In this document: positions 21,168-41,254 of the stretch, piece by piece
How positions within the stretch are numbered: position 1 is the first letter of the stretch
How the letters are laid out: every line of letters starts with the position of its first letter
Source of the DNA: Nocardioides marmoriginsengisoli
GTDB lineage: Bacteria; Actinomycetota; Actinomycetes; Propionibacteriales; Nocardioidaceae
Length of the DNA stretch: 64,000 nucleotides
Assembly (NCBI RefSeq): GCF_003725695.1
Contig: NZ_RJSE01000007.1
Coordinates: forward strand, 820,963-884,962
Direction of reading: 5' to 3'
Program-made: the position numbers and the translations under genes
The notes under the pieces: generated by a model
The model's input: the letters and a program-made list of their open reading frames with translations, nothing else
Databases searched by the model: none
What the model was told of the DNA's origin: nothing

Positions 21168-21186
21168 GGGAAAGAGACTAACGCAG

Positions 21187-23520: not shown

Positions 23521-23532
23521 CGGGCGAAGTGC

Positions 23533-24294
23533 CTACGAGGTGACCGGGGGAGGCATCTCGATAGGCGCCCGGCTGACCGACGCACTCTTCGCGAGCACCT
23601 TGAGCACGTCGCGACGCACCCGCTCGCACCGCTTCGCCATGGCCTCTCGAGCGCCTTCCTCGTTGCGCTCGCGGAGCTGCTCCGCGATGGCCCGGAGCTC
23701 GCCGGGAGGGCTCGACGCGTTCGGAGCGATCAAGGCGACCATTCGCAGGACTCGCTCCAGCTCGTCGATCACGTCGACGATCGCCTTGCCGAGCCGGTTG
23801 TTCTCGGCACCGTTGGCGACGATGGCTTCGAAGCCGATCCCTGCTCGCAGCGACTCCTCCAGACCTGTGTCGCCCTGGGCCAGGGCCACCGGTACCTCGG
23901 CGAACGCGTCCAGCTGGTCGAGCGCCAGGTTGTCGAGTCCGTTCCGAGCGGCCACGGCCGCACCTTCGCTGGAGAGCAGGGTGCGCAGGCCGCAGAGGTC
24001 GTCGGTGTCCTCGAGGGTCACCGGGCTGACGACGTAGCCGGCACGGGGCATCGCGTTCACCAGGCCGTCCCGCCGGAGGCGGGCGAGGGCCTCGCGCACG
24101 GGGGTCTTGCTGATGTTCCACTGCTGGGCGAGTGAGGACTCGGTGAAGCTGCTGCCCGGCGGCAGCGTCAGGTCGATGATCTGGCGCCGGATCGCACGAT
24201 AGGCCTGGCTGGTTCGGTCGAGGTTGGTGTCGTCCGTGCCGACCAGGAGAAGCGCGGGGACGTGGGTCATTCCGGTGATGACAGAGTCGGGCAT
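23533..24294 (-). CDS. GntR family regulator, FadR subfamily (FCD domain)
   Basis: 253 residues. The winged helix covers about 25-95 (RTSQAYRAIRRQIIDLTLPPG, then LAQQWNISKTPVREALARLRRDGLV and the wing PRAGYVVSPV). The remaining helical FCD domain starts with LCGLRTLLSSEGAAVAARNG; the metal-ligand histidines common in FCD proteins are not obvious, so the ligand may be bound without metal. A TATGCT box ends 6 nt before the ATG at 24294, implying a leaderless transcript. An operator-like repeat sits just upstream, so self-regulation is likely. Presumed regulator of the adjacent catabolic cluster. Confidence 0.9.
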   Translation of the reverse strand: MPDSVITGMTHVPALLLVGTDDTNLDRTSQAYRAIRRQIIDLTLPPGSSFTESSLAQQWNISKTPVREALARLRRDGLVNAMPRAGYVVSPVTLEDTDDLCGLRTLLSSEGAAVAARNGLDNLALDQLDAFAEVPVALAQGDTGLEESLRAGIGFEAIVANGAENNRLGKAIVDVIDELERVLRMVALIAPNASSPPGELRAIAEQLRERNEEGAREAMAKRCERVRRDVLKVLAKSASVSRAPIEMPPPVTS

Positions 24295-24310
24295 CGCGCG
24301 AGCATACCAG

Positions 24311-24366
24311 TATCAGATATTGATATGGCAACGTCTGAGATATGTAGTGCGACGATTAGTATCTCA
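24311..24366. promoter_or_regulatory. Inverted-repeat operators between GntR and aminotransferase genes
   Basis: TATCA-GATAT-TGATA lies at 24311-24325, directly upstream of the GntR -10 box. TGAGATA (24336-24342) and TATCTCA (24360-24366) form a second, perfect 7-nt inverted repeat with a 17-nt gap. All copies share AGATAY. The stretch is strikingly AT-rich compared with flanking genes. The same motif recurs at about 26203 and 33170, which suggests a common regulator, most simply the GntR protein. Confidence 0.6.
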
Positions 24367-24382
24367 ATGGTACCTTCCCTGC

Positions 24383-25555
24383 ATGCAGACAAGCAGAACA
24401 GAATCCTGGGTGCTGCCTCCGACGGCCGGGCTCCCGGTGATGGGCGCGATGAGCGCGCGCGAGCGCGCGATGCGTGCGGGCCGAGACGGTGCTCGCATGC
24501 TTCCCCTCGTCGGTGCTCCGATCCTCCCGATGCCCCTGCACGTGCGACGGGCGGCAGCCGAGGCCTTGAACCGGCCGGATCCGCGCGACAGTCGCGGCCT
24601 CCCCGAGCTGCGCACGGCGATCGCCGACGACCTGGCACGCGTGCACGACTTGGACGTCGATCCGGAGCGGCGCCTCATCGTCACCCACGGTGCGATGCAG
24701 GGCCTCTCCCTGGTGTTCCGCACCGTGCTCGCTCCGGGGGACGAGGTCGTCGTGCCCACGCCCACGTTCTTCTTCGACGGTCTCCTGAGGGAGAGCGGCG
24801 CCCGTCCTGTCCATGTTCCGACCCTGGCGTCCGACGGGTGGGCTCTGGACGTAGCGAGGCTCGAAGCCGCGATCACGACCCGGACCCGTGCCTTGCTGAT
24901 CTGCAACCCGAACAACCCGACCGGGCACCTTCCGGACGCTGCGACGCTGGAGGCGGTGGTCGCCCTCGCGGCTCGACACGGGCTGCTGATCATCTCCGAC
25001 GACTCATGGCAGCACTTCACCTACGACGGCCGCGAGTACACGCCGCTGGAGTCCTTCGCCGATCGCTGGCCGCACATCATCACGGTGATGAGTCTGAGCA
25101 AGTACTACGCGTTGGCCAGCTGGCGGGTCGGCTACGTGATCGCCCCGCCCGAGGTCGTCGACGCACTCGAGTGCCGCCTCCAGTGGGAAGCGGTGTGTTG
25201 CGGAATCGTGTCCCAGTCGGCCGCGACTGCGACCCTGACGGGGCCCCGCGACTGGTTGGAATCGGCACGTGCGACCTACCAGGTCAAGCGTGACTACGTC
25301 TGCGACGGCATCGCAGCGAGCGGCCTCAGCGTGCCCGAGCGACCAGAGGCGGGGGCCTTCCTGCTCGTCGACTGCGCCCGCCTCGGGGAGACCGCCGAGG
25401 CCATCGACGCCGCCCTCCTGCGCAACGGCATCTCCTCCATCCGCGGTGCTGACCTGCACGCGCCCGGGAACTACGTCCGGCTGGTCTTCGGCTCGGACGA
25501 AGACGTCCTGGCCGACGTGGTCCGCGGTATCACCCGGGCGGTCCAGGAGGCGTAG
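24383..25555 (+). CDS. PLP-dependent aminotransferase, class I/II
   Basis: 390 residues from the ATG at 24383 (an in-frame extension runs back through the promoter and is rejected). Fold-type I signatures: THGAMQGLSLVF for the cofactor phosphate region, CNPNNPTG, SDDSWQHFTY with the pyridine-nitrogen aspartate, the Schiff-base lysine in MSLSKYYALASWRVGY, and C-terminal YVRLVFG supplying the carboxylate-binding arginine. Amino donor and acceptor are unknown. Divergent from the GntR regulator and close to the glycine-releasing genes, so it probably handles an amino-acid intermediate. Confidence 0.88.
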   Translation: MQTSRTESWVLPPTAGLPVMGAMSARERAMRAGRDGARMLPLVGAPILPMPLHVRRAAAEALNRPDPRDSRGLPELRTAIADDLARVHDLDVDPERRLIVTHGAMQGLSLVFRTVLAPGDEVVVPTPTFFFDGLLRESGARPVHVPTLASDGWALDVARLEAAITTRTRALLICNPNNPTGHLPDAATLEAVVALAARHGLLIISDDSWQHFTYDGREYTPLESFADRWPHIITVMSLSKYYALASWRVGYVIAPPEVVDALECRLQWEAVCCGIVSQSAATATLTGPRDWLESARATYQVKRDYVCDGIAASGLSVPERPEAGAFLLVDCARLGETAEAIDAALLRNGISSIRGADLHAPGNYVRLVFGSDEDVLADVVRGITRAVQEA

Positions 25556-25731
25556 CGTCAGCCGCCGAGCCGGTGCTCCGCGCTCGACGGGGACGACAGC
25601 GCCGGCCTCGTGCAGCTCACCGCTCGCGCCTTGCTCCGGCTCGGCGAGCCGTTATTGCCGGCGGGATCGGGAGGGGCCGCGTCGGGGTCCCCGGGAGGTG
25701 TCGGCCCGGCGCAGGTGATCTCGGACAAGGA

Positions 25732-26109
25732 TCAGCGCTCCCCGACGTGGGAGTCGTAGGCGGCCGCATCGAGCAGGCCGTCGGCCCGCGAGATGCGCAG
25801 CTCAAACAGCCAGCCAGCGCCGTACGGATCGGAGTTGACCAGCCCGGGATCCTCCTGCGCTGCGTGGTTCACCGCGACCACCTCGCCGTCGGCGGGCGCG
25901 AACAGCTCGTTGACGGACTTGGTCGACTCCAGCTCGCCGCAGGTCGATCCGGTGGTCACGAGGGCGCCGACCTCGGGCAGCTCGACGAAGACGATGTCGC
26001 CCAGGGCGTCGGCGGCGAAGCGGGTGATGCCGACGCGCGCCCTGGTGCCGTCGACGTCGAGCCACTCGTGCTCGGCGGTGTACTTCAGGTCGGCAGGGCT
26101 CGGCGCCAT
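25732..26109 (-). CDS. gcvH: Glycine cleavage system H protein (stand-alone copy)
   Basis: 125-residue lipoyl-carrier protein. The lipoylated lysine is in GELESTKSVNELFAP near residue 65, with the flanking YTAEHEWLDVDG start and VNSDPYGAGWLFEL end typical of H proteins. The ATG at 26109 has AGGAG 7 nt upstream; an upstream in-frame extension to 26190 is rejected. No P, T or L protein gene is nearby. It is divergent from the hyuA operon and shares its AT-rich promoter region. It may serve glycine produced by the cluster, or be a dedicated lipoyl carrier. The 176 nt between the aminotransferase stop and this gene show nothing recognisable. Confidence 0.92.
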   Translation of the reverse strand: MAPSPADLKYTAEHEWLDVDGTRARVGITRFAADALGDIVFVELPEVGALVTTGSTCGELESTKSVNELFAPADGEVVAVNHAAQEDPGLVNSDPYGAGWLFELRISRADGLLDAAAYDSHVGER

Positions 26110-26202
26110 GGGCACTCCTAGGGGCTGGTCGGTCGGCGTGGGCTGCGGTGCTCGATCGACCACGTCGCAGCAGGGATTCAAATAGTACAACAGCTGGGCT
26201 TG

Positions 26203-26215
26203 TTAAGATATTAAG
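26203..26215. promoter_or_regulatory. AGATAT-type operator between gcvH and hyuA
   Basis: TTAAGATATTAAG in an AT-rich island (about 26178-26235) between divergent gcvH and hyuA. The core AAGATAT matches the sites at 24311-24366 and at 33170-33180. It lies about 45 nt before the hyuA start and 95 nt before the gcvH start, so it can serve both. Common regulation by the GntR protein is inferred. Confidence 0.5.
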
Positions 26216-26260
26216 AAACCTCTACTCTGATCTCACTCACGCCTATCGAAGGAGTTCCAA

Positions 26261-28339
26261 GTGCCTGGCAGTCACGATCTGCGATCCAGCGGCTGGCGAG
26301 TCGGCGCCGACATCGGCGGCACGTTCACCGACGTGATCGCCTTGGGCCCGGCGGGCGAGGTCGTCCCGATGAAGGTGCCGTCCACGCCGCCCGACTACGG
26401 AGCCGGCGTGGTGTCGGCGACCATGTCCGTCCTTGCGGCGGCTTCCGTCGAGCCGCGGGACGTGGTGGCGATGCTGCACGGCACGACCGTCGCGACCAAC
26501 GCGATCCTCTCCAAGAACGGCGCCCTCACGGCGGTCGTCACCACCCGTGGCTTTCGGGACGTGCTCGAGATCGGTCGGTTGCGCCGTCCATCCCTCTACG
26601 ACCTGTCGTGGTCCCGGCCCGAGCCGCTGGCGCGGCGGCGCCACCGCTACGAGCTCGACCAGCGGATCACGTCCGGTGGGCTGCTCGAGCCTGCGGCCGA
26701 GGAGAACGAGGTCCGCGCTCTCGCGAGCCGGCTGCGCGCAGACGGGATCGAAGCCGTTGCCGTGTGCCTGCTCAACTCCTACGTCCGGCCCGATGAGGAG
26801 CGCCGAGTCGCCGACCTGCTGCGTGCTGAGCTGCCCGGCGTCTACGTCACGGCCTCGGTCGACGTGTCGCCGCAGCTCCAGGAGTACGAACGCACCAGCA
26901 CGGCGGCGGTCAACTCGTACGTCGGTCCCGCGGTGCACGGGTATCTAACCCGTCTGGAGGCCGGACTGCGCAATGAAGGCGTGGTCGCCCCGCTGCTCGT
27001 CATGCAGTCCAGCGGAGGCCTGATGGACGCTGGCTCGGTCGCGGAGCGCCCGGTGCAGATCATCGAGTCGGGGCCCGCGGCTGGCGTGACCGCGGTCCAG
27101 AAGCTCGCCGAGATGATCGGGCTGTCGACGGTGGTCGCGTTCGACATGGGCGGTACGACGGCGAAGGCCTCGCTGATCGAGGACGGTGAGCCGTTCGTGT
27201 CGGCCGACTACGAGGTGGGTGGCGGCATGAACATCGCCCGCGGACTGGCCTCGGGGGCCGGGTACCCCGTGCGCGCGCCTTCCATCGACATCGCGGAGGT
27301 CGGTTCCGGTGGTGGCAGCATCATCGCTGTCGACCCTGCCGGCGCCCTGCACGTCGGGCCTTCGAGTGCGGGCTCCCGGCCCGGCCCGGCGTGCTACGGC
27401 CACGGCGGTGAGCTGCCGACGCTGACCGACGCGAACGTCACTCTCGGCTACCTCAGCCAGACGTCGCTCGCCGGCGGCACGGTGACGATCCATCCCGACC
27501 TCGCCGCCAAGGCGCTGGCCCCCGTTGCCGACCAGCTCGGTGCGGACGTGCAGGAGACGGCGCGCGGTGCCTACCAGGTGGCCGTGTCCAACATGACCAC
27601 CGCGGTCAAGGCGGTCACCAGCGAACGCGGACGGGACCCGCGTGACGCGACGATGGTCGCGTTCGGTGGTGCCGGTCCGCTGTACGCTGCTTCGCTCGCG
27701 CGTGAGCTCGGGATCACGACGGTGATCGTGCCGGTCTACCCGGGCTTGTTCAGCAGCCTCGGACTGCTGGTCGCGGACACCGAGCACCACGAGCTGACGT
27801 CCTATCGTCCGGAGCACGCTGAGCTGCGGGTGCTCGCCGGTGAGTTCGACAGGCTCGCGGCGAAGGTCGTCGACGAGCTGGGCGGCGATGCCGAGATCGA
27901 CCGTCTGGTCGACATGAGGTACCGGGGCCAGCGATTCGAGCTGCGGGTTCGGGTCCCGGACGGCGAGCTGACCGAGGAGCTGCTCGCCGAGACCCGGGCA
28001 CGGTTCCACGCCGAGCACCAGCGAACCTACGGGCGCGTCGGAGCCGACGACCTCGTGGAGCTGGTCAACCTGCGGGTACGCGGATGGATACCGACCGCAG
28101 TCGCCGTCGCCGACGTCCTCGACCTGCCTGCCGATCCGGGCCGCGCGGCGGCCACGCGGTCGTGCCGGTTCGACGAGCTCGTGGCGACGCCGGTGATCGG
28201 ACGGGCCGACCTCGGCTCGGATCCCGTCGAAGGGCCGCTCGTCATCGAGGACATGGACGCCACCACGCTTGTTCCACCCGGTGCGCGGGTCTTCCGCGAC
28301 CGGTTCAACAACATCGTGATCACCTGGAGCGCACCTTGA
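26261..28339 (+). CDS. ATP-dependent hydantoinase/5-oxoprolinase family, subunit A (HyuA)
   Basis: 692 residues. Family of ATP-driven cyclic-amide hydrolases and related carboxylases, paired with a B subunit. The N-terminal actin/hexokinase-like nucleotide site begins with GADIGGTFTDVIA (about 10-22); HGTTVATNAIL, the second phosphate segment FDMGGTTAKASLI and VGSGGGSI are all typical. The GTG at 26261 has AAGGAG 6 nt upstream. It overlaps subunit B by 4 nt. Members act on N-methylhydantoin, 5-oxoproline, hydantoins or (as carboxylases) ketones; sequence by eye does not choose between these. Confidence 0.92.
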   Translation: MPGSHDLRSSGWRVGADIGGTFTDVIALGPAGEVVPMKVPSTPPDYGAGVVSATMSVLAAASVEPRDVVAMLHGTTVATNAILSKNGALTAVVTTRGFRDVLEIGRLRRPSLYDLSWSRPEPLARRRHRYELDQRITSGGLLEPAAEENEVRALASRLRADGIEAVAVCLLNSYVRPDEERRVADLLRAELPGVYVTASVDVSPQLQEYERTSTAAVNSYVGPAVHGYLTRLEAGLRNEGVVAPLLVMQSSGGLMDAGSVAERPVQIIESGPAAGVTAVQKLAEMIGLSTVVAFDMGGTTAKASLIEDGEPFVSADYEVGGGMNIARGLASGAGYPVRAPSIDIAEVGSGGGSIIAVDPAGALHVGPSSAGSRPGPACYGHGGELPTLTDANVTLGYLSQTSLAGGTVTIHPDLAAKALAPVADQLGADVQETARGAYQVAVSNMTTAVKAVTSERGRDPRDATMVAFGGAGPLYAASLARELGITTVIVPVYPGLFSSLGLLVADTEHHELTSYRPEHAELRVLAGEFDRLAAKVVDELGGDAEIDRLVDMRYRGQRFELRVRVPDGELTEELLAETRARFHAEHQRTYGRVGADDLVELVNLRVRGWIPTAVAVADVLDLPADPGRAAATRSCRFDELVATPVIGRADLGSDPVEGPLVIEDMDATTLVPPGARVFRDRFNNIVITWSAP

Positions 28340-30066
28340 TTCGCGACGCCGTGACCTTCGAGGTCTTCCGCAATGCCGTGACCGGACTGGCTGACGAGAT
28401 GGCGATCACGGTCCTCCGGACAGCGCACTCGCAGCTGGTCGCCACCAGCATGGACTTCTCCGCGGCCCTGTGTGACCGGGAGGGCAGGATCATCGCCCAG
28501 GCGAACACCCTCCCGGTGCACCTAGGCTCGATCCCCGGCGCGATGGACGCGATCTTCGACGAGTTCGAGGGCAGGATCCAGCCGGGCGACATCTACCTGC
28601 TCAACGACCCGTCCCTCGGCGGGATGCACCTCCCCGACATCTTCGTCATCGCTCCTGTCTTCGAGGGTCCGACCCTGCTGGGCTTCTCGGTCACGGTCGT
28701 CAATCACACCGACGTCGGTGGCTGGGCTGCTGGTTCGATGGCGGTGCAGTCGACGAGCATCTTCGCCGAGGGCATCCAGATCCCGCCGCTGCGTCTCCTC
28801 GAGGCCGGGGTGCTGAACGAGACCTTCCTGCAGCTGGTCCTCCGCAACGTGCGTGAGCCGGACCTGTTGCGCGGAGATCTCGAGTCGCAGCTGGCGGCGT
28901 GCCACACCGGAGCCGAGGGTCTGCGCGCGCTGGCCGCCAAGCACGGTGTCGAGCACTACGAATCCCTGATCGACGAACTGCTCGACTACTCCGAGACCTT
29001 GTTCCGAGCAGCGCTCGCGGAAGCGACCGCGGGCACCTACGAGTTCACCGACCACATCGACGACGACGGCCTCGGGTCCGGCCCCATCCCCATCCGGGTG
29101 CAAGTGACGCTGTCGGGGTCGGGGATCGAGCTCGACTTCACGGGGTCTGCGCCCCAGGTTGCCTCCGCCCTCAATGCGACCGAGTCGTTCACCCGGTCGG
29201 CCTGCTACGCCGCGCTCCAAGGCGTCATTCCGTCGGACATCCCTGCCAACAGCGGCTTCTACCGGCCGTTCAGCTTCGTCATCCCGGATGCCTCCATCCT
29301 CAACGGGCGGCGCCCGTCCGCCCGAGGCGCTCGCGGCCTGGTCGGGTTCCGGATCGTGGACGCCGTGCTCGGTGCGCTGGCTCCGGTCTTCCCCGGCCGG
29401 GTTCCGGCTGCCGGCGACGGCGGTCCGAACGGCATCGCGATCGGCATCGTCCGCGACGACGGCGGATCGGTCGTGCTCTGGGATCCCCTGTCCGGTGCCT
29501 GGGGCGCGCGGCCGGACCGGGACGGCGTCGACGGCATCAGCTCCCTGGGCGCCAACCTCACCAACACGCCGATCGAGGAGCTCGAGCAATCGGGCTACAT
29601 CCGGATCGATGGCTACGGGTACGTCCCGGACACCGGTGGCGCGGGCCGCTGGCGCGGGGGTATGTCGACCTTCCGTGACATGACGATGCTGGCGCCGGAG
29701 GCAAGCGTGCAGATCAGGTCCGATCGACGGATGTTCCTGCCGTACGGGCTTGCCGGCGGCGCGCCGGGCTCGCCCTCGCTGAACATGCTCGACCCGAACG
29801 GGCCCGATGAGCGCATGCTGAGCTCGAAGCCGCAGTTCGTGATGACCGCGGGGACCTCGCACCGGCACGTGACGGCAGGCGGCGGTGGGCACGGCGATCC
29901 GTTCGACCGGGACCCGGACCGCGTCCTGGAGGACGTCCTCGACGGCAAGGTCACCCACGCGGGCGCCGCGCGTGACTATGGCGTCCTGATCGATCCGGAC
30001 GGCACGATCGATTCCAGCGGAACCTCACGGCTGCGCGCCGACCGCCTCGAAGGGAGCAGGGCATGA
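28336..30066 (+). CDS. ATP-dependent hydantoinase/5-oxoprolinase family, subunit B (HyuB)
   Basis: 576 residues from a TTG start at 28336 that overlaps the hyuA stop (TTGA). Subunit B signatures: EVFRNAVTGLADEMAITVLRTAHS at the N-terminus, DREGRIIAQANTLPVHLGS, NDPSLGGMHLPDIFV and VNHTDVGGWAAGS with conserved metal-type histidine and aspartates, and the C-terminal TAGGGGHGDPFDRDP. With HyuA it forms the active complex. The stop overlaps the next ATG (ATGA). Confidence 0.92.
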   Translation: MIRDAVTFEVFRNAVTGLADEMAITVLRTAHSQLVATSMDFSAALCDREGRIIAQANTLPVHLGSIPGAMDAIFDEFEGRIQPGDIYLLNDPSLGGMHLPDIFVIAPVFEGPTLLGFSVTVVNHTDVGGWAAGSMAVQSTSIFAEGIQIPPLRLLEAGVLNETFLQLVLRNVREPDLLRGDLESQLAACHTGAEGLRALAAKHGVEHYESLIDELLDYSETLFRAALAEATAGTYEFTDHIDDDGLGSGPIPIRVQVTLSGSGIELDFTGSAPQVASALNATESFTRSACYAALQGVIPSDIPANSGFYRPFSFVIPDASILNGRRPSARGARGLVGFRIVDAVLGALAPVFPGRVPAAGDGGPNGIAIGIVRDDGGSVVLWDPLSGAWGARPDRDGVDGISSLGANLTNTPIEELEQSGYIRIDGYGYVPDTGGAGRWRGGMSTFRDMTMLAPEASVQIRSDRRMFLPYGLAGGAPGSPSLNMLDPNGPDERMLSSKPQFVMTAGTSHRHVTAGGGGHGDPFDRDPDRVLEDVLDGKVTHAGAARDYGVLIDPDGTIDSSGTSRLRADRLEGSRA

Positions 30067-30608
30067 CTACCGCACTGATCATCGGAGACGTCCAGGAGGG
30101 GATCACGGGCGCGTACCCGTTCGCGGAACGCGTCGTCCCGCCCCTCGCCGAGCTGCTTCCACGAGCCCGTACGGCGGGCGCGCTCGTCGTCTTCGTGCGG
30201 TTCGCCTTTCGCGGCAACGGATCCGACGTACCGCCGGCGAGTCCGCTGCTCCGGGGGTTCTTCGAGGCGGGCAGCGACTTCCACGAAGGGTCGGCGGGCA
30301 CCGAGATCGCCCTGGCGGTCTCTGACGAGGACGTCGTCGTGCTCAAGCGACGTGCGAGCGCGTTCCACGGCACCGACCTCGACCTGGTCCTTCGCGCGGC
30401 AGGGGTGGACCACGTCGTGATCGCCGGCGTGGCGACCAGTGCGATGGTGGCGGCTACGGTCTACGGCGCTGCAGACCGGGGCTACGGGGTCACCGTGCTG
30501 CGTGACGGCTGCGGTGATGCGGACCCGGCGATGCACGAGTTCTTCATGAGCGAGGTCTTCCCGAGTCGTGGCGTCGAGGTCGTGCGCTGTGCCGAGTGGC
30601 ACGCATGA
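30063..30608 (+). CDS. Isochorismatase-fold hydrolase with Met in place of the catalytic Cys
   Basis: 181 residues of the cysteine-hydrolase fold that includes N-carbamoylsarcosine amidase, nicotinamidase and isochorismatase. Asp9 (IIGDVQEG) and Lys95 (VVVLKRRASAF) are in place, but the usual GVATNVCVEST segment reads GVATSAMVAAT, so position 128 is methionine where the nucleophilic cysteine belongs. Isochorismatases such as EntB and PhzD also lack this cysteine and cleave vinyl ethers. Hence this is probably not an amidase; it could be a non-amide hydrolase or a non-catalytic partner. Tightly overlapped with hyuB and the next gene. Confidence 0.82.
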   Translation: MTTALIIGDVQEGITGAYPFAERVVPPLAELLPRARTAGALVVFVRFAFRGNGSDVPPASPLLRGFFEAGSDFHEGSAGTEIALAVSDEDVVVLKRRASAFHGTDLDLVLRAAGVDHVVIAGVATSAMVAATVYGAADRGYGVTVLRDGCGDADPAMHEFFMSEVFPSRGVEVVRCAEWHA

Positions 30609-31789
30609 ACCAGGCGTTCCTGGATCGGCTCCGTGTCGACCTCGACGTGCGTCGCGACGGGGTCGGCCTGCGTGAGGACTTGGTGGTGTCCGGGCCGCAA
30701 GGTCCGCTGGTCGGTCTCGGCGGCCAGCAGGTGGTGAACCTCGCATCCAATGACTACCTCGGTCTCGCCGGTGACCCTGAGGTGCTCGAATCGGCTCGCC
30801 AGGCGGTGACGGAGCTGGGCCTCGGGACGACTGCGGGAAGGGTTCTGTGCGGGAATCGAGAGGTCCACCACCGGCTCGAGGAACGCCTCGCCGCGCTCGT
30901 CGGAACCGAGGGAGCGGTCCTGTACGGGTCATGCTTCGACGCGAACTTGGGGGTCTTCGACGCACTGCTGGGGCCCGAGGACGTGGTTCTCAGCGATGCG
31001 CTCAACCACGCCAGTCTGATCGACGGCATCCGGCTCGCGTCGGCGCGACGGCGGGTCTACGCGCATGGCGACCTCGAGGAGCTGGAGCGTCACCTCGCAG
31101 GATCTGCCGACGCGCGTCATCGCGTGATCGTGACGGACGGCGTCTTCAGCATGGACGGCGACCTGGCCGACCTGCCGGCACTGGAAGAGCTGGTGCGTCG
31201 CTACGACGCCGTGCTGGTGGTCGACGACTCGCACGCGACCGGCATCCTCGGAGCGACGGGTGCCGGGACGGCGGAGCACTTCGGACTGGTCGGCGGCATC
31301 GATGTCCTGACCGGTACGTTGGGGAAGGCCCTGGGAGGCGCCGCCGGTGGCTTCGCCGCCGGCTCCCGCGCCGTCGTGGACACGCTGCGCCAGGTCTCCC
31401 GGCCGTACGTCTTCACGAATGCGATGGCTCCGGCCCTGTGCGCGGCGGTCCTGTCCGCCCTGCAGATCGCGCACGATCGGCCGGCGCTCCGGCAGCAGCT
31501 GGCAGCCAACGCCCGGTGGTTGCGGCAGGCGCTGGGCGACCTCGGGTACGAGGTGGTTCCGGGTGAGCATCCGATCATCCCGGTCATGCTGCGGGGAGGT
31601 TCGTTGGCACGCGACCTGGCCGCAGAGCTGCGCCTCCAAGGCATCCTGGTCCTGGCTCTCGCCCATCCGGTCGTGCAGCCGGGCGAGGAGCGGATCAGGG
31701 TGCAGGTCTCCGCGTCCCACACGCCCGAGCAGCTCGAGCAGGTGGTCGCCGCCTTCGGCCGCACTCGGCGAATGCTCGGTGCGGCATGA
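30605..31789 (+). CDS. Alpha-oxoamine synthase, glycine C-acetyltransferase (KBL)-like
   Basis: 394 residues from the ATG at 30605, overlapping the previous stop by 4 nt. PLP fold-type I: DGVFSMDGDLADLPAL, DDSHATGILG, and the Schiff-base Lys241 in GTLGKALGGAAGGF. The last motif is the form seen in 2-amino-3-ketobutyrate CoA ligases more than in BioF. Such enzymes cleave a 2-amino-3-oxoacid with CoA to glycine plus acyl-CoA, or run the reverse condensation. No biotin genes are nearby, and gcvH belongs to the same cluster, which favours the glycine-releasing role. BioF-like activity is not excluded. Confidence 0.82.
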   Translation: MNQAFLDRLRVDLDVRRDGVGLREDLVVSGPQGPLVGLGGQQVVNLASNDYLGLAGDPEVLESARQAVTELGLGTTAGRVLCGNREVHHRLEERLAALVGTEGAVLYGSCFDANLGVFDALLGPEDVVLSDALNHASLIDGIRLASARRRVYAHGDLEELERHLAGSADARHRVIVTDGVFSMDGDLADLPALEELVRRYDAVLVVDDSHATGILGATGAGTAEHFGLVGGIDVLTGTLGKALGGAAGGFAAGSRAVVDTLRQVSRPYVFTNAMAPALCAAVLSALQIAHDRPALRQQLAANARWLRQALGDLGYEVVPGEHPIIPVMLRGGSLARDLAAELRLQGILVLALAHPVVQPGEERIRVQVSASHTPEQLEQVVAAFGRTRRMLGAA

Positions 31790-32592
31790 GCGCCGGAGCA
31801 GAGTCCGGAACCGGACTGGCTGCACCGACGGCTGCGGACAGCCGCGAGTTCGAGGGGCGGGTCGCGGTCGTCACCGGTGGGGCGAGCGGCATGGGTCTGG
31901 CGACCGTCCACGCTTTGGCCCGGCGCGGCGCGACTGTAGCCGTGCTCGACCTGGTGGCGCCGGACCCCGCCGAGCTCGCGCTGCGCCTGGACGCGCTCCC
32001 GGAACGGATTCTGACGCTCTCCGTCGACATCACCGAGCGCTCGCAGGTGGTCGGCGCGTTCGCCTCGGTGCTCGCCGGATCGTCCCGGATCGACATCCTG
32101 GTCAATGCGGCCGGAATCGCACCGTCCACCTCGTTCGAAACGATCGACGACGACGAATGGGACCGGGTGCTCGCCGTCAACGTGAACGGCACCTTCCTCT
32201 GCGCCCAACAGGCTCTTCCTGGCATGCGGGGCCGAGGCTGGGGACGGATCGTGAACTTCTCCTCGACGGCGGGCAAGACCATCAGCACGGCCGGCGGAGC
32301 TCACTACACGACGGCCAAGCACGGAGTCCTCGGGCTGACCAGGCACTTGGCGAAGGCCTACGGTCCTGACGGGATCACGGTCAACGCCGTCTGTCCGGGC
32401 CTGATCGACACGCCGATGGCGCGCGCGCTCCTTCCGCAAGACGACCTGGAGCGGGCCGCGAGCGCCTTCCCGGTTCCTCGGGTGGGGCTGCCCTGGGAGG
32501 TCGCGGAACTGGTGGCCTTCCTCGCGTCCGACCGCGCGGCGTACATCACCGGCGCCGCTGTCGACATCAACGGCGGCGACCTGATCGTCTGA
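31786..32592 (+). CDS. SDR family dehydrogenase in the hydantoinase cluster
   Basis: 268 residues. Cofactor motif TGGASGMG near 29-36, NAAG near 105, catalytic serine in NFSSTAG, and YTTAK. The aspartate in VAVLDL at the end of the second strand suggests NAD rather than NADP. An N-terminal tail of about 22 polar residues precedes the fold; internal starts are possible. It overlaps the KBL-like gene by 4 nt. Its position just downstream of an alpha-oxoamine synthase suggests oxidation of a beta-hydroxy-alpha-amino acid to the 2-amino-3-oxo form; this is inference. Confidence 0.86.
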   Translation: MSAGAESGTGLAAPTAADSREFEGRVAVVTGGASGMGLATVHALARRGATVAVLDLVAPDPAELALRLDALPERILTLSVDITERSQVVGAFASVLAGSSRIDILVNAAGIAPSTSFETIDDDEWDRVLAVNVNGTFLCAQQALPGMRGRGWGRIVNFSSTAGKTISTAGGAHYTTAKHGVLGLTRHLAKAYGPDGITVNAVCPGLIDTPMARALLPQDDLERAASAFPVPRVGLPWEVAELVAFLASDRAAYITGAAVDINGGDLIV

Positions 32593-32620
32593 CCGGCGAC
32601 GAGACATCGAAGGAGTGGAG

Positions 32621-33121
32621 ATGGTGAGGAAGGTACGACGCGTCGTCGTCGGCGCGCTCGGCGGCCACGAGTCCACGATGACGCACGTCGAGGAGGTGGC
32701 GCCGGTCGAGACCGAGGACGGTTCGATGCTGTCGTGGCCGATCTGGGGCTGGGACGAGTTGCCGACCGTTCCGCGTGCCGAGGGCTCCGGCCCCGACCTG
32801 CAACCTGCGTTTCCGGCAGCCGGTGGCGTCCGCGTCGTCGCGTTGCGCGGGCACGGCGGCACGGTCGGCGCGTTGGAGGATCTGGGGAGGGTGCTGCCGG
32901 GCTTCGTCCACGACGCCGCACGACCCGGGATGCACGCGACCGACACGATTGATATCGCGATGGTGATCGAGGGGAGGGCCGTCATCGAAGCGGGCGACGG
33001 TACGCGAACGACCCTTGGCCCCGGTGACGTGTACGTCTGCAACGGCGCCCTGCACCGGTGGCTGTACGAGGAGCCGACGCACATCGTGTTCGTCGTGGTC
33101 GGCGCGAATCGCGAGCGCTGA
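32621..33121 (+). CDS. Cupin-domain protein
   Basis: 166 residues from the ATG at 32621, which has AAGGAG 5 nt upstream. The C-terminal half shows the cupin pattern: DIAMVIEGRAVIEAGDGTRTTLGPGD, then NGALHRW with the conserved histidine. The first cupin box is atypical (HATDTIDIAMV). The N-terminal half (WPIWGWDELPTVP) is not recognised. Similar proteins are often encoded next to dehydrogenases in catabolic operons. No function assigned; it may bind metal and act as an isomerase or small-molecule binding protein. Confidence 0.72.
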   Translation: MVRKVRRVVVGALGGHESTMTHVEEVAPVETEDGSMLSWPIWGWDELPTVPRAEGSGPDLQPAFPAAGGVRVVALRGHGGTVGALEDLGRVLPGFVHDAARPGMHATDTIDIAMVIEGRAVIEAGDGTRTTLGPGDVYVCNGALHRWLYEEPTHIVFVVVGANRER

Positions 33122-33169
33122 CGGGGCCGCTCGACCGCCGGAAACGGCGTGTTGCTCTGCGCCGGATCG

Positions 33170-33212
33170 TAAGATATCAAGTCTTGACTTTGAGATCGCA
33201 CGAACGTAAGAA
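33170..33212 (+). promoter_or_regulatory. Promoter and operator of the ABC importer genes
   Basis: TTGACT (33184-33189), a 17-nt spacer and TAAGAA (33207-33212) make a good sigma-A-type promoter. Upstream and overlapping the -35 are TAAGATATCAA (33170-33180), matching the cluster motif AGATAY, and the palindrome CAAG-T-CTTG (33178-33186). A repressor bound here would block the promoter directly. Transcription would start near 33219. Confidence 0.6.
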
Positions 33213-33246
33213 TGCCGTACCAATCGACGTCTAGAGGAGAATGATG

Positions 33247-34449
33247 ATGAGGCGAACCATGCTGCTGCTGGTCGCAGCGATCCTGGCGGTCGTCGCCGCA
33301 GGCTGCGGCAACGACAAGGGAACATCCGGAAGCTCGCCTTCCGTCGCGCTTCCTGACGGACCGATCGAGATCGGGATGGCGATCGCCCGATCGGGTCTGG
33401 CGGCGCCGTACGACCTCGGCCCTGCCCGGGGCGCGGAGCTGGCCGTCGCGGACATCAACGCCAAGGGCGGTGTTCTCGGCCACCCGCTCAAGCTGGTCTA
33501 CGGCGACACCAAGTCGGACCGTGCGCTGGGCACGACCGTGGCACTCGACCTCCTGGCCAAGTCCGCGAAGGTCATGGTCGTCACCTGTGACTTCGACCTC
33601 GGAAGCCCCGCCGCTATCGCTGCCACGAGCAAGGACGTCGTCGCCTTCACGCCGTGCGCAGGTTCCTCGCAGTTCGACGTGCCGACGCTCGGGCCGCTCG
33701 CGTACTCGATGGGCACCGAAGCCGGGGCTGCGGCCGAGAACGTCGCCCAGTTCGCCTACGACCAGGGCTACCGCAAGGCCTACCTCTGGCTCGACCCGAG
33801 CATCTCGCAGACGAAGAACACCTGTGCTGCTTTCGACTCGGCCTTCGGGGCGAAGCCGGATGCGGAGGTGGTGGGCAGCGACACCATCCAGCAGCAGGAC
33901 ACCTCGTTCGCGGTCCAGATCGCCAAGGTCCGCGACTCCGGCGCCGACGTTCTCGAGCTGTGCAGTTACAACCCGGGTGCTGGCGCTGCCCTCCGCGAGC
34001 TCCGTGCCTCCGGGATCGACATTCCGGTGACGTCGCACCTGGCCATGGACGGCAACTACTGGCTCAAGGCCGTGCCGAACCTCAGCAAGTTCTACTACGA
34101 CGCCTTCGGCTCGCTCTACGGCAACGACCCGCGCGCGGACGTGAACACCTTCTTCGACCGCTACCGGGAGAAGTTCGGCGAGCCCGCGGTGACGTCGTAC
34201 GCCCTGACCGGTTACGCGACGATCGAGGTGATCGCGAAGGCGATCGAGTCGGCCGAGACCACCGAGGGTGCCGCGCTCGCCAAGGCGATCGACGGCCTGG
34301 GCGAGTTGGACACGATCCTCGGACGCACCGGCTACGACGCCGAGCACCACATCGTCGCCGACCGGCCGTCGGTGATCATGAGCATCGACAACGGCACGTT
34401 CGACCCGGTCGCGACGTACGTCCGTGGCGCCAAGAGCAAGGTCGGCTGA
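33247..34449 (+). CDS. ABC transporter substrate-binding lipoprotein, LIV/urea/amide type
   Basis: 400 residues. Three ATGs stand in a row at 33241, 33244 and 33247; the AGAGGAG site is correctly spaced (7 nt) only for 33247. Lipoprotein signal MLLLVAAILAVVAAGC with lipidated cysteine near residue 21. The mature part has the periplasmic type-1 binding fold seen in LivK: IEIGMAIARSGLAAPYDLGPARGAELAVADINAKGG opening the first lobe. It begins a five-gene importer unit. The ligand is unknown; the family binds branched-chain amino acids, urea and short amides. Confidence 0.9.
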   Translation: MRRTMLLLVAAILAVVAAGCGNDKGTSGSSPSVALPDGPIEIGMAIARSGLAAPYDLGPARGAELAVADINAKGGVLGHPLKLVYGDTKSDRALGTTVALDLLAKSAKVMVVTCDFDLGSPAAIAATSKDVVAFTPCAGSSQFDVPTLGPLAYSMGTEAGAAAENVAQFAYDQGYRKAYLWLDPSISQTKNTCAAFDSAFGAKPDAEVVGSDTIQQQDTSFAVQIAKVRDSGADVLELCSYNPGAGAALRELRASGIDIPVTSHLAMDGNYWLKAVPNLSKFYYDAFGSLYGNDPRADVNTFFDRYREKFGEPAVTSYALTGYATIEVIAKAIESAETTEGAALAKAIDGLGELDTILGRTGYDAEHHIVADRPSVIMSIDNGTFDPVATYVRGAKSKVG

Positions 34450-34454
34450 CAGGA

Positions 34455-35183
34455 ATGTCCCTGCTCCTGCGCACCCGCCAGCTCAGCGTTCGTTTCGGCG
34501 GACTCTGTGCTCTCGACGGCGTCGAGCTCGAGCTCGGTGCCGGTGAGATTCTCGGGCTGATCGGGCCGAACGGAGCCGGCAAGACGACTCTGCTCAACGT
34601 GCTGTCCGGTTTCCAGCGGCCCACGGTCGGGGAGGTCGAGCTCGACGGACGCACGATCACCCGGTGGGATGCGCCGCGTCGGGCCAGGGCCGGCATCAGT
34701 CGGACCTTTCAGGACGTGCGCCTGTTCGAGGAGATGAGCGTGCAGGAGAACTGCGAGGTCGCCGTGGTCGGCTGCGGGGGACGTCGTTCCACGGCGCGCA
34801 CGCAGGCGACGCAGGCCCTCGAGCTGCTGGACCTCCAAGGCAGTGCTCACGTCCTGGCGCGAGACCTGCCGTACGGGCTCCAGAGACGTGTCGGCCTGGC
34901 GCGCGCGCTGTGCGCCAGGCCGCGCGTGCTCCTGCTCGACGAGCCGGCGGCCGGCCTGAACGACGACGAGAGCGCCGCGATGGCCGAGACGGTACGGGCC
35001 ATCCACGCTGAGCTCGGGTGCGGGGTGGTCGTCATCGAGCACGACGTCCGGATGATCCTCGGGCTCAGTCACCGCGTGCACGTGCTCGATCACGGCGTCA
35101 CCCTCCGCGTGGGCAGTCCGGACGAGATCAGGACGGACCCGGACGTGGTCACGGCCTACCTGGGGGAGGAGGTGCACGCATGA
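34455..35183 (+). CDS. ABC transporter ATP-binding protein, LivG type
   Basis: 242 residues from the ATG at 34455. Walker A GPNGAGKTT, Q-loop in FQDVRLF, ABC signature region LPYGLQRRVGLARAL (a LivG-like YGxQRR form) and Walker B VLLLDEPAAGL followed by H-loop VIEHDV are present. It starts 5 nt after the binding-protein stop and overlaps the LivF-type gene by 4 nt. Powers uptake together with the second ATPase. Confidence 0.93.
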   Translation: MSLLLRTRQLSVRFGGLCALDGVELELGAGEILGLIGPNGAGKTTLLNVLSGFQRPTVGEVELDGRTITRWDAPRRARAGISRTFQDVRLFEEMSVQENCEVAVVGCGGRRSTARTQATQALELLDLQGSAHVLARDLPYGLQRRVGLARALCARPRVLLLDEPAAGLNDDESAAMAETVRAIHAELGCGVVVIEHDVRMILGLSHRVHVLDHGVTLRVGSPDEIRTDPDVVTAYLGEEVHA

Positions 35184-35893
35184 CCCTGCTCGAGATAGCG
35201 GACCTGCACATCTCCTACGGGCCCGTTGATGCCGTCCGGGGGGTCACCCTGGACGTGGAGAAGGGTGGCGTCGTCGCGATCGTCGGGCCGAACGGGGCCG
35301 GCAAGACGAGCATCCTCTCCGCAGTCCAGGGCCTCGTTCGAACGCGGAGCGGAACGATTCGCCTGCGAGGTGCGGAGATCACGGACTGGTCGCCCGAGCG
35401 ACGGGCGCGGGCGGGGATCGCCTTCGTCCCCGAGTCGCGCGGCATCTTCGGCTCGCTCTCGATCGCGGAGAACCTGAGCCTCGCCGCCTGTGCCCTGGCC
35501 GAGAAGGCGACGGCGGCTGCGCAGATCGAGCGGTCGCTCGAGCTCTTCCCGGTCCTGGCCGACCGGCTGAACCAGCGCGCATCCGTGCTGTCCGGAGGAG
35601 AGAGGCAGCAGCTGGCCATCGGTCGGGCGCTCGTCTCCTCACCGGACCTGCTGGTCCTCGACGAACCTTCGCTGGGCCTGGCGCCGGTGATCCTTGACGG
35701 GCTCTTCGCCAGCCTCGCCGCGCTACGGGACGAGGGTCGGACGATTCTCGTGGTCGAGCAGAACGTCAGCCGCGCCGTGAGGCTCGCCGACCACGTGTAC
35801 TCCCTGCGCGGCGGCCTGCTGGAGCGGCTGGAGAACCCCCAGGACCTGGTCGGCGATCCGGCGTTCCGCGCCAAGCACCTCGGAATGGAGTGA
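35180..35893 (+). CDS. ABC transporter ATP-binding protein, LivF type
   Basis: 237 residues from the ATG at 35180. Walker A GPNGAGKTS, the LivF-type PESRGIFGSLSIAENL segment, signature LSGGERQQLAIGRAL, Walker B LLVLDEPSLGL and VVEQNV for the H-loop position, in which the histidine is replaced by glutamine as usual in LivF. Forms a heterodimer with the preceding ATPase. The permease gene starts 4 nt after its stop. Confidence 0.93.
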   Translation: MTLLEIADLHISYGPVDAVRGVTLDVEKGGVVAIVGPNGAGKTSILSAVQGLVRTRSGTIRLRGAEITDWSPERRARAGIAFVPESRGIFGSLSIAENLSLAACALAEKATAAAQIERSLELFPVLADRLNQRASVLSGGERQQLAIGRALVSSPDLLVLDEPSLGLAPVILDGLFASLAALRDEGRTILVVEQNVSRAVRLADHVYSLRGGLLERLENPQDLVGDPAFRAKHLGME

Positions 35894-35897
35894 GCAC

Positions 35898-36770
35898 ATG
35901 GCTCAGAACCTCATCAACGCGCTCAGCCTCGGCAGTCTCTACGCCTTGATCGCTCTCGGAATCGCGCTGCTGTTCAGCATCATGGGCCTGATCAACTTCG
36001 CACACGGCGAGCTGATCACCATCGGCGGCTACACCCTGCTGGCGTTCCACGGCCTGCCGTTGGCCGTGGCCGTCGCGCTGACCGTCGCGGTCGTCGTCGC
36101 CGCTGCGCTGACCATGGAACGGCTCGCGTTCCGTCCTGCCCGCGGAGCCAGCGGCGAGACGTTGCTGATGACGTCCTTCGCGCTGAGCCTGCTCGTCCAG
36201 GGTGGCGTGCTCCTGAAGGAGGGCGCCGACCCGCAGAGCGTGAACGTACTCGGAAGCCTGGGCGCGAGCGTCGACGTGGGTGGCATGACCATCGGCAAGC
36301 TGGATGTCGCCATCATCGGAGTGACGGGCGTGCTGCTGATCGGGCTCGCGTGGTTCCTGCGGGCCACGCCGCTCGGGGTGCAGATGCGCGCCGCGGCCGA
36401 GGACTTCACCATGGCTCGCGCGCTCGGGGTCCGGGCGGATCGGGTCGTCGCGACTGCCTTCGGGGTGAGTGGCGCGTTCGCGGCCGTGGCCGCCGTCTTC
36501 CTCGTCGCCCGTACCGGCACGCTCACCCCGAGCATGGGTCTGACGCCGGTCCTGCTCGGGTTCGTGGCGATCGTGCTCGGTGGGCTCGGGCGGCTCTGGG
36601 CCGCCGCGATCGGCGCGTACGTGCTTGCTCTCCTCTCCGTGATGCTGCAGGCATACCTACCCACAGGGCTGGCCGCCTACCGCGACGCCCTGGTCTACCT
36701 CGGCATCATCGTCATCCTGCTCTTCCGGCCGCACGGGATCGCCGGTCGACCGCAGGGGGTGCGGGTATGA
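35898..36770 (+). CDS. ABC transporter permease, LivH type
   Basis: 290 residues with about eight membrane spans. Typical LivH pattern: NALSLGSLYALIALGIALLF, then MGLINFAHGELITIGGY near residues 30-46, and a cytoplasmic coupling region RAAAEDFTMARALGVRADRV. One of two permeases of the importer; its stop overlaps the LivM-type start by 4 nt. Confidence 0.93.
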   Translation: MAQNLINALSLGSLYALIALGIALLFSIMGLINFAHGELITIGGYTLLAFHGLPLAVAVALTVAVVVAAALTMERLAFRPARGASGETLLMTSFALSLLVQGGVLLKEGADPQSVNVLGSLGASVDVGGMTIGKLDVAIIGVTGVLLIGLAWFLRATPLGVQMRAAAEDFTMARALGVRADRVVATAFGVSGAFAAVAAVFLVARTGTLTPSMGLTPVLLGFVAIVLGGLGRLWAAAIGAYVLALLSVMLQAYLPTGLAAYRDALVYLGIIVILLFRPHGIAGRPQGVRV

Positions 36771-37846
36771 GGAACAGAGCGATCACGCTGGTGGCCGGGA
36801 GTGCCCCCGCAGCGCTGTCCACGCTGCTCGTGCTCGTGATCAGCGGCCTGGCCATGCTGGGTTCGGAGACGACCCAGCGGACTGCGGCGCAGATGCTGGT
36901 GATGGGGGTGATCTGTGTCGGCACCTACATCTTCGTCGGCAACTCAGGGGTGCTGTCCTTCGGCCACGTCGTCTTCGTCGCCGTGGGTGCGTACAGCACC
37001 GCACTGATGACCATGGAGCCCGGTCTGAAGCGAGCACTGCTCCCGGACCTTCCGGGCTGGATCGTCGACCTGCACCTCGGGATGGCTGCCGCACTCCCGG
37101 TCGCGGGTCTGCTCGCTCTCCTCGTCAGCGTGCTCTGCTCACCCTTGGTGCTCCGGCTGGACGGGATGGCAGCAGGCATCGCGAGCCTCGCGCTCCTGAT
37201 CAGCGTCAACGTGGTGATCGGCAACTGGGACCAGGTGACCCGGGGTTCGCAAGGCATCGTCGGGATCCCCGCCGACCTCACCGTCGGCACAGCGCTGCCC
37301 TGGTTGATCGGTGCGATCGTGCTCGCTCTCGCCTACCAGGTGAGCGCCTCCGGGTTCCGGCTACGGGCCTCCCGGGAAGATGCGGTCGCGGCGGCATCGC
37401 TGGGTGTCCGGGTCGGCCGCGAGCGCACGATCGCTCTGGTGATCAGTGCTTTCGTCTGCGGGATCGGCGGCGGCCTGTATGCGCACTTCCTCGGAGCGCT
37501 CACGCCAGGGGACGTCTCGCTCAAGCTCACCTTGCTGGCGCTGCTGATGCTGATCGTCGGTGGCCTGAGGAGCCTGAGCGGGGCTGTGATCGGGACGATC
37601 TTCATCTCCGTGCTGGCCGAGCTGCTGCGCCGGGTCGAAGCCGGCGGCGACTTCGGTCCGATCGCGCTCGCCCCGCATCCCGGGATCGAGCAGGTAGTCC
37701 TCGCCCTGACGCTCCTCTTCACTCTGCTGCTCCGGCCTGGAGGGATCACCTCGGGAAGGGAGCTCGGCCACCGACTGGTACGACGGTCGAGTCGGGACGT
37801 TGAGACCGCCCGCACCGAGATCGTGGCCGCGCCCGAGCCGGGGTGA
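36767..37846 (+). CDS. ABC transporter permease, LivM type
   Basis: 359 residues from the ATG at 36767 with about ten hydrophobic segments. LivM signatures are GNSGVLSFGHVVFVAVGAYS near 61-80 and the coupling helix ASREDAVAAASLGVRVGRER. The C-terminal tail is charged and cytoplasmic. Last gene of the importer; the next gene has its own promoter. With the binding protein, two ATPases and LivH it completes a LIV-type uptake system. Confidence 0.93.
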   Translation: MRNRAITLVAGSAPAALSTLLVLVISGLAMLGSETTQRTAAQMLVMGVICVGTYIFVGNSGVLSFGHVVFVAVGAYSTALMTMEPGLKRALLPDLPGWIVDLHLGMAAALPVAGLLALLVSVLCSPLVLRLDGMAAGIASLALLISVNVVIGNWDQVTRGSQGIVGIPADLTVGTALPWLIGAIVLALAYQVSASGFRLRASREDAVAAASLGVRVGRERTIALVISAFVCGIGGGLYAHFLGALTPGDVSLKLTLLALLMLIVGGLRSLSGAVIGTIFISVLAELLRRVEAGGDFGPIALAPHPGIEQVVLALTLLFTLLLRPGGITSGRELGHRLVRRSSRDVETARTEIVAAPEPG

Positions 37847-37909
37847 CGTGGGCCACGGGCCGTAGGCCGGGGATCCCGCGGCCGCCGGGCATCCTGGGTA
37901 GAGTCCTGC

Positions 37910-41161: not shown

Positions 41162-41224
41162 GAGGGGACCGTACTGGCGTCCCGGTGCGCTGCGAAAGAG
41201 ACGCGCGTCCAGGGTTCTGCGGAA

Positions 41225-41248: not shown

Positions 41249-41254
41249 GTGGCC

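Follow-up and report, generated by a model that had tools for sequence, protein, structure and literature searches.

A conserved HyuAB gene cluster with a KBL-like synthase in Nocardioides marmoriginsengisoli: a candidate regulon for ring-amide catabolism

Gene content of the cluster

The gene cluster described here occupies positions 23533 to 37846 of a 64,000-nt stretch of the Nocardioides marmoriginsengisoli genome (contig NZ_RJSE01000007.1), referred to below as the window, and combines a HyuAB enzyme of the hydantoinase/oxoprolinase type with a KBL-like alpha-oxoamine synthase, a GntR regulator and a LIV-type importer, which together may represent a catabolic regulon. Gene families were assigned from the Pfam and NCBIfam profile scores of translated open reading frames (ORFs), and all coordinates are those of the window unless a relative's locus is named. 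The contiguous gene set from gntR to the LIV genes, as proposed in an earlier reading of the sequence (the original prediction), was confirmed by these profiles, although only weakly for the cupin.

At the left end, gntR (23533..24294, minus strand) encodes a GntR/FCD regulator (PF00392, PF07729), the probable repressor of the cluster, and is divergent from a plus-strand gene for a class I/II aminotransferase-fold enzyme dependent on pyridoxal 5'-phosphate (PLP), designated here as AT (24383..25555; PF00155; listed ORF from 24224). An extra gcvH gene (25732..26109, minus strand) is divergent from hyuA; its product is a full-length member of TIGR00527 (142.2 bits against a cut-off of 115.85) with the lipoyl-lysine motif ESTKSV. 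The plus strand then carries hyuA (26261..28339; PF01968, PF05378) and hyuB (28336..30066; PF02538, 529.5 bits; ORF from 28084), which encode the ATP-binding and catalytic subunits, respectively. These are followed on the same strand by genes for an isochorismatase-fold protein lacking the catalytic Cys (ICH; 30063..30608; PF00857), the KBL-like alpha-oxoamine synthase of a distinct subfamily (30605..31789; NF005394, 465.3 bits; a GTG start at 30596 is possible), a FabG-like short-chain dehydrogenase (SDR; 31786..32592; PF13561; NF009466, 227.5 bits against 222) and a putative, weakly matched cupin (32615..33121; PF07883, 22.3 bits, below the cut-off of 27.2). The predicted 4-nt overlaps between the genes from hyuA to the SDR gene could all four be read in the DNA (TTGA for hyuA/hyuB; ATGA for hyuB/ICH, ICH/KBL and KBL/SDR).

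The right-hand part of the cluster, also on the plus strand, encodes a complete LIV-type importer according to Pfam, consisting of a LIV/HAAT-type substrate-binding protein (33241..34449; PF13458, 150.3 bits), two ABC ATPases (LivG-like, 34455..35183, PF00005 and PF12399; LivF-like, 35180..35893, PF00005) and two permeases (LivH-like, 35898..36770; LivM-like, 36767..37846; both PF02653). The stretch 23400-38200 yielded no terminator-like site (2.5 expected) and a single promoter-like site, ahead of the importer genes (33184-33213; 0.5 expected); no conclusion was drawn from either result.

Conservation and acquisition of the cluster

The genomes conserving this gene set, for which the original prediction had proposed a search, were found to exist. 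Seventeen distinct KBL-holding loci (the window, L007-L016, L088 and L096-L100) were compared within the fetched stretches; L087, which lies on the same contig as L011, was left out, and L098-L100 were located via HyuA and the other loci via KBL. Orthologues of AT, GntR, HyuA, HyuB and SDR were shown to lie beside KBL in all 17, the window included, with GntR identities of 67-82% (the L010 and L097 copies being cut by the stretch edge). As judged from this gene content, the set is a real conserved unit in scattered actinobacteria, beyond chance. ICH was present in 15 of the 17 loci (absent from L012 and L015), and a gene for a CoA-acylating (methyl)malonate-semialdehyde dehydrogenase (MMSDH) in 13 (absent from the window, L009, L011 and L015). 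An MFS transporter was encoded in 12 loci and the LIV set in five, and both were complete together in none of the fetched stretches. GcvH was found in three loci (the window, L098 and L100) and the cupin in two, its only orthologue among the 18 relatives' loci being that of L011. In L097, LivM gene fragments (16855-17261 of that locus) lie beside an MFS-type cluster and are likely a relic of a transporter swap.

Two further loci, L089 (Rhodococcus qingshengii plasmid NZ_CP077418.1, 9847-17787; AT, GntR, HyuAB, MFS and ICH) and L101 (AT, GntR, HyuAB and MFS), were shown to have no KBL, SDR or MMSDH gene nearby, and their AT proteins are merely 42-46% identical to that of the window. HyuAB, AT, GntR and a transporter, present in these loci too, thus look like a core, to which KBL, SDR and MMSDH would form a second block.

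When the KBL-like protein was compared with genome contigs, the best ten of the 80 loci kept (L007-L016) exhibited 68-74% identity and the next at most 48%. The whole-genome sample searches scored few candidates per genome, and the following counts are thus possible underestimates. A KBL match of at least 71% was obtained in 3 of 293 genomes of the host's own order, its own genome among them; a KBL search at E 1e-135 in the family of G690 gave 5 of 298 genomes, three of which represent the already known L008-L010, and a HyuA search at E 1e-220 in the order of G687 gave 5 of 397, G687 (L007) included. The HyuA match of G1336 had no KBL within the stretch fetched. In a phylum-wide sample searched with HyuA at E 1e-200, only the own genome was recovered (1 of 396; two candidates scored per genome shown). 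Within the genus, a KBL orthologue was present in two of the eight members shown.

Genes of the HyuA/HyuB family are widespread, as 582 plasmid records were found to hold a HyuA relative at E 1e-100, one of these exceeding 60% identity; to our knowledge, few enzymes of this family have a known substrate. A plasmid search with the KBL protein returned 108 records, with all matches below 60% identity. HyuAB loci of Bosea and Paraburkholderia were rejected as the same set (~45% HyuA identity, with alanine racemase and other genes instead), as was a Pseudosulfitobacter HyuAB locus of differing gene content; an unannotated Caballeronia record was left out of the comparison. In the Bosea and Paraburkholderia plasmid loci (L090, 9013-16838; L091, 86-14081), HyuAB is accompanied by alanine racemase, an ABC importer and a protein of the isochorismatase fold in which the Cys, and apparently the Asp and Lys as well, are missing.

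Third-codon-position GC content (GC3) ranged from 0.835 to 0.929 for the genes from 20664 to 37846, and from 0.926 to 0.976 for flanking genes, except for a short ORF at 18515 (0.88); the GMC oxidoreductase gene at 16675 was left out of this comparison. In the three genus relatives examined of the seven searched, guaA and a P450 gene are kept with 9-15 kb of other material between them, and none of the cluster genes were found in that interval; G161 carries the cluster elsewhere on the same contig as its guaA-P450 interval. The lower GC3 and patchy presence suggest that the cluster was acquired by horizontal transfer. No integrase gene was detected among the genes scanned, which did not comprise every ORF, and the only tRNA gene of the window is at 4007. 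The genes between guaA and the cluster (20664-23520), i.e. a MarR regulator, an SDR, an unassigned ORF and a GDSL lipase-like gene, also exhibit lower GC3 and may be part of the same insert.

Predicted operators and the additional gcvH gene

A word close to TTGATATCTCAA was found to be common to the GntR/AT gaps of the relatives. An operator matrix was trained on these gaps from 14 relatives, leaving out L010 (in which GntR and AT lie apart), L011, L089, L101 and the window, and 20 windows shuffled in 200-base blocks served as control (best scores 7.1 to 18.1). The four best places in the window fall in the gcvH/hyuA gap, the GntR/AT gap (two sites) and the importer gap. The top place, a predicted GntR operator between gcvH and hyuA (26200..26217, minus strand), scored 21.4 bits, above all 20 shuffles. 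The two predicted operators of the GntR/AT gap (24317..24370, plus strand) scored 17.67 and 16.09 bits, with one of the 20 shuffles reaching 18.1, and that upstream of the importer genes (33166..33183, minus strand) scored 15.24 bits, with one of the 20 shuffles higher; the latter was also recovered in a genome scan as a two-mismatch match. Next in rank were the opposite strand of the gcvH/hyuA site (14.59 bits) and a place at 9463 (13.11 bits).

A hyuA-upstream site of at least 19.4 bits was observed in 17 of the 18 relatives' loci, including the two KBL-less loci with HyuAB and AT, the exception being L011, in which AT directly precedes hyuA; the L089 site is the weakest and farthest. Allowing up to two mismatches, the whole genome contained 12 matches, compared with eight for a control pattern; five of the 12 fall in the cluster, one of these within the cupin gene. 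Exact operator matches away from the cluster were seen in G1340, G694 and G687, among the matches listed for the 18 genomes or records scanned. Several FCD regulators of G1340 may share this operator motif. Five stretches were taken from these three genomes, one of them, in G1340, around looser matches; the ten family-scanned ORFs of one of the five, L134, comprise 4-hydroxyphenylacetate-type and other catabolic genes. The cluster is probably switched by its own GntR repressor, and the co-regulation on which the original prediction depended agrees with the predicted operator shared by gcvH/hyuA, AT and the importer, as far as sequence can indicate.

The window gcvH is the second of two above-cut-off copies in its genome and exhibits 56% identity to the main copy. 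In L098 and L100, which are close kin, gcvH is again divergent from hyuA and again a second copy, and is followed by glyA and sdaA (similar ORFs in both; sdaA and the serine hydroxymethyltransferase were Pfam-checked in L098 only); of the families that relatives share beyond the core, these two proved informative. Tandem glycine riboswitch aptamers, all four above the gathering score, precede gcvH in these loci (L098, 5595-5779; L100, 5566-5750). Glycine-riboswitch control was rejected for the window gcvH, as no such match was found in 18500-40000 at E 0.5; its promoter instead carries the best predicted GntR site of the window. The riboswitches, glyA and sdaA accompanying gcvH in the two kin speak for glycine as a product, or for serine by way of SdaA. 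The predicted entry of glycine into the GcvH system gains from the recurrence of gcvH in this company, and is weakened by a linkage of only 3 in 17.

The KBL tree groups the window, L011, L098 and L100 (support 85/87) and, since L098 and L100 are close kin, the GcvH linkage may go back to a single association that was partly lost afterwards, and not to several. It is conceivable, if rather improbable, that GcvH is a passenger, brought in from a donor where a gcvH-glyA-sdaA operon adjoined the cluster, and that glycine is no product at all. Such an origin would agree with the limited linkage, confined to one KBL subclade if L011 lost gcvH, and with the grouping of the cluster GcvH copies (window, L098 and L100) at 75/88, a weak fork. 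It is at odds with the window gcvH being intact, with no glyA, sdaA or riboswitch alongside, and having the best predicted operator of the window at its promoter.

Enzyme features, candidate pathway and adjacent genes

Both HyuAB subunits score above their Pfam cut-offs (306.4 bits, cut-off 22.9; 156.7 bits, cut-off 25.2; 529.5 bits, cut-off 26.8). The HyuA motifs DIGGTFTD, DMGGTT and GxxPGP were conserved in 19 of 19 loci, and correspond to the DxGGTxTD, DxGGT and GxxPGP sites described for CapA (PMC8453981). The best-scoring NCBIfam models for both subunits were those of caprolactamase, at 450.2 and 271 bits against a cut-off of 1000, and identity as a CapAB equivalog was therefore rejected. 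The best solved relative of HyuA is 7hk5, deposited as N-methylhydantoinase (423.6 bits), followed by 6yra, named 5-oxoprolinase (321.6 bits). A carboxylase function was likewise rejected, as the acetophenone carboxylase models reached only 216 of 1500 and 170.5 of 1250 bits for HyuA and 108.3 of 1500 for HyuB; no third carboxylase subunit was detected among the genes scanned. The cluster thus resembles the HyuAB/OplA/CapAB family in both subunits and in the phosphate- and adenosine-site motifs, but its HyuAB is no equivalog of any model matched, and the partner genes described for the caprolactam route (PMC8453981) are unlike those found here.

AT was shown to retain the PLP-binding Lys and a C-terminal Arg. 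At one site, which is Tyr in the two relatives without KBL, all 17 loci with KBL have Trp; we take this site and the Arg to correspond to residues 225 and 386 of aspartate aminotransferase. The MMSDH motif QRCMA is present in 13 of 13 sequences, and the three proteins scored against TIGR01722 reached 686-705 bits (cut-off 448.5). No MMSDH gene was found in the cluster of the window, and its genome encodes one outside the cluster, on contig C16. The recurrence of this dehydrogenase in 13 of 17 loci, overlooked in the original prediction, means that a further product needs to be explained.

The Asp-Lys-Cys triad of isochorismatase-fold cysteine amidohydrolases is not preserved in ICH, in which Asp and Lys are kept and Cys is replaced by Met in 16 of 16 sequences (L089 included). 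Because of this replacement, ICH is probably not a carbamoyl hydrolase, and a part for it in the trimming step of the original prediction is not supported; it may hydrolyse an enol ether, acetal or enamine by acid-base chemistry. In a published study, E. coli YecD and EntB carry Gly at the Cys position (EntB being Asp-Lys-Gly), and wild-type YecD was inactive as a lactamase in the test reported (PMC12553813).

Among glycine C-acetyltransferase models, the KBL-like enzyme scored above the cut-off of NF005394 (465.3 against 460) and below that of TIGR01822 (435.2 against 493). Identity as BioF, named in the original prediction as a finding that would overturn it, was rejected on the basis of TIGR00858 (388.2 against 426.45) and a tree position beside bona fide KBLs. 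The cluster KBLs of all 17 loci fall into a single clade (99/100; stem 0.77 changes per column), separate from and sister to that of the bona fide KBLs, to which E. coli KBL belongs; long-branch rows, namely two own-genome paralogues and L020, were kept in this tree. Twenty-two columns differ by type between the cluster KBLs and 18 comparison rows; five of these rows (L018, L020-L022 and L025) fall outside the KBL clade. Numbered from the first Met of the E. coli KBL sequence, positions 78, 79, 81, 82, 351 and 355 are altered in all 17, including V79G, F81V, Y351L and F355L. Positions 81, 351 and 355 presumably lie on the acyl side, as we take it from 5-aminolevulinate synthase structures. Position 79 is Val in 13 and Ser in five of the comparison rows.

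This position was equated with Val79 of a 2025 study because the Val of E. coli KBL and the Ser of SPT and AONS, as given there, fit the column (PMC11906848). The study reports that Val79 adjoins the amino acid and is invariant among KBLs, and that ThAOS with the V79G change accepts a wider set of amino acids and acyl-CoAs of greater length (PMC11906848). The natural clade described here thus already holds the change with which engineers have widened such an enzyme (PMC11906848). Based on these residues, the cluster KBL-like enzymes seem to be made for a bulkier substrate; of the KBL cleavage originally predicted, membership of the KBL family stands, while a plain KBL step is doubtful, given the Gly at position 79 in all 17.

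These traits bear on a scheme close to the original prediction, in which HyuAB opens the hydantoin of a threonine-type beta-hydroxy amino acid, ICH decarbamoylates it, SDR oxidises the product and an ordinary KBL yields glycine and acetyl-CoA. HyuAB family membership, the adjacent SDR and KBL-like genes with their ATGA overlap, the glycine-linked genes and the distant relationship of ICH to N-carbamoylsarcosine amidase (39.7 bits) are consistent with it. The scheme is nevertheless unlikely, as ICH lacks the Cys in 16 of 16 sequences, the KBL hallmark Val79 is missing in 17 of 17, MMSDH and AT are left unexplained, and YecD, with Gly at the Cys position, was without lactamase activity as wild type in the published test (PMC12553813).

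Building on the gene content, conservation, predicted operators, subfamily traits and signs of acquisition described above, we infer the direction, order and chemistry of each pathway step. It is with roughly even confidence that we regard the cluster as a catabolic regulon that is controlled by GntR, has spread horizontally and serves the breakdown of a small ring amide, probably an anion (a lactam, hydantoin or related compound, best taken as an acid of the lactam or ureide type), and thus as a form of HyuAB-based ring-amide catabolism. The compound would be imported by the LIV system (or MFS, in 12 of 17 loci), the LIV-type substrate-binding protein arguing for import rather than export, and HyuAB would open the ring amide in an ATP-dependent manner. 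The Cys-less ICH would process the opened product by hydrolysis or tautomer chemistry rather than amide cleavage, and AT would act on it on some branch, before or after ICH. Oxidation by SDR would make, or use, a keto or aldehyde group, and the KBL-like enzyme, with CoA, would perform thiolytic C-C cleavage of a beta-keto-alpha-amino acid. The conserved regulon bounds this chemistry, in that one would expect it to yield a small amino acid (most likely glycine, possibly serine), an acyl-CoA larger than acetyl-CoA and probably (methyl)malonate semialdehyde. MMSDH, encoded outside the cluster in the present genome, would finish this C3/C4 semialdehyde (malonate or methylmalonate semialdehyde), and glycine would enter glycine cleavage, the window gcvH apparently having been placed under the cluster regulator. 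A hydantoin is a possible substrate, yet gamma- or delta-lactams, or compounds yielding a malonate-type semialdehyde, fit the additional facts better. The predicted operator sites make substrate discovery practical, as the inducer could be found by means of a reporter.

Several observations weigh against this regulon. AT has no convincing place in the scheme, MMSDH is absent from four of 17 loci, the window included, ICH is missing from L012 and L015, and we know of no chemistry for an ICH with Met at the Cys position. Loss of Val79 weakens the case for glycine as the released amino acid. The GcvH linkage, seen in three loci of which two are close kin, may go back to a single event with hitch-hiking; by plain identity, the window GcvH matches the main copy of the relative G161 at 63.3% and the cluster copy of L098 no better, at 63.0%, and gcvH-glyA-sdaA of L098 and L100 may be a riboswitch-controlled housekeeping operon beside which the cluster landed by chance. 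As for regulation, one of the 20 shuffles, with a best score of 18.1, outdoes all of the four top operator places but the first, and contig C1 of G1340, which holds L099, contains 69 operator-like words against four for the control, some counted on both strands; with words so frequent in that genome, this regulator may not be the only one to use the motif.

A sharper form of the ring-amide regulon, not exclusive of it, is the catabolism of a natural-product-like lactam that, once opened, would break up into a 2-amino-3-oxo or 3-hydroxy acid and (methyl)malonate semialdehyde, with ICH hydrolysing an enol ether, N,O-acetal or enamine. True isochorismatases hydrolyse a vinyl ether, and clavam-type oxazolidines, 3-hydroxypyroglutamates and lactacystin-type gamma-lactams are conceivable candidates. 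This proposal would jointly explain MMSDH, an ICH without Cys that keeps Asp and Lys, the altered KBL site and the glycine genes. It is doubtful, as none of these compounds is directly supported, strained beta-lactams need no ATP and AT is still without a clear place. The Cys-less, Asp-Lys-Gly EntB provides a parallel (PMC12553813). Stated as a whole pathway for lactam acids, perhaps actinomycete natural products, with HyuAB opening, a semialdehyde-releasing Cys-less ICH, a KBL-like subfamily of retro-Claisenases and glycine cleavage rewired from the riboswitch to the cluster's own regulator, the idea is rather improbable.

A biosynthetic or salvage role, with the KBL-like enzyme condensing an amino acid and an acyl-CoA, SDR reducing the ketone and HyuAB and ICH tailoring the product, would draw on the ability of alpha-oxoamine synthases to run in the condensing direction (PMC11906848). 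Such a role is very improbable, as the importer includes a substrate-binding protein, MMSDH and the GcvH/GlyA/SdaA company are catabolic and no assembly-line genes were found among the genes scanned.

Known routes share elements with the ring-amide regulon proposed here. As in the Tdh-Kbl route, a dehydrogenase adjoins a KBL-family enzyme, which is sister to bona fide KBLs in the tree; however, the dehydrogenase is a FabG-like SDR, Val79 and Phe81 are lost, and the cluster adds HyuAB and ICH, and its relatives MMSDH. The creatinine/N-methylhydantoin route, which uses N-carbamoylsarcosine amidase, similarly places HyuAB beside an isochorismatase-fold protein, whereas the cluster ICH lacks the Cys and no creatinine-route genes are among the identified cluster genes. 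Uracil Rut and beta-alanine/valine catabolism, which end in malonate or methylmalonate semialdehyde, resemble the cluster in the isochorismatase fold and in MMSDH, encoded in 13 of 17 loci, but no RutA-like oxygenase was identified in the cluster, and KBL-like and HyuAB enzymes play no part in those routes. The full-length GcvH, above the TIGR00527 cut-off, matches the glycine cleavage system, from which the locus differs in that gcvH is solitary, without gcvT, gcvP or a riboswitch, and under a predicted GntR operator. In line with the original prediction, no description of this gene set or pathway was found in the titles and abstracts of the papers listed by full-text searches of open-licence PubMed Central literature; the enzyme families are known, and what did not turn up in those papers is the way they are combined, along with the KBL subclade, an ICH without Cys and the coupling of gcvH.

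To the right of the cluster, positions 37910-47968 encode a P450, a GMC oxidoreductase, a TetR regulator, a second P450, a second TetR regulator and luciferase-like monooxygenase, diaminopimelate (DAP)-dehydrogenase-like and old-yellow-enzyme proteins. These genes exhibit native GC3 and look like a separate oxidative catabolic group.

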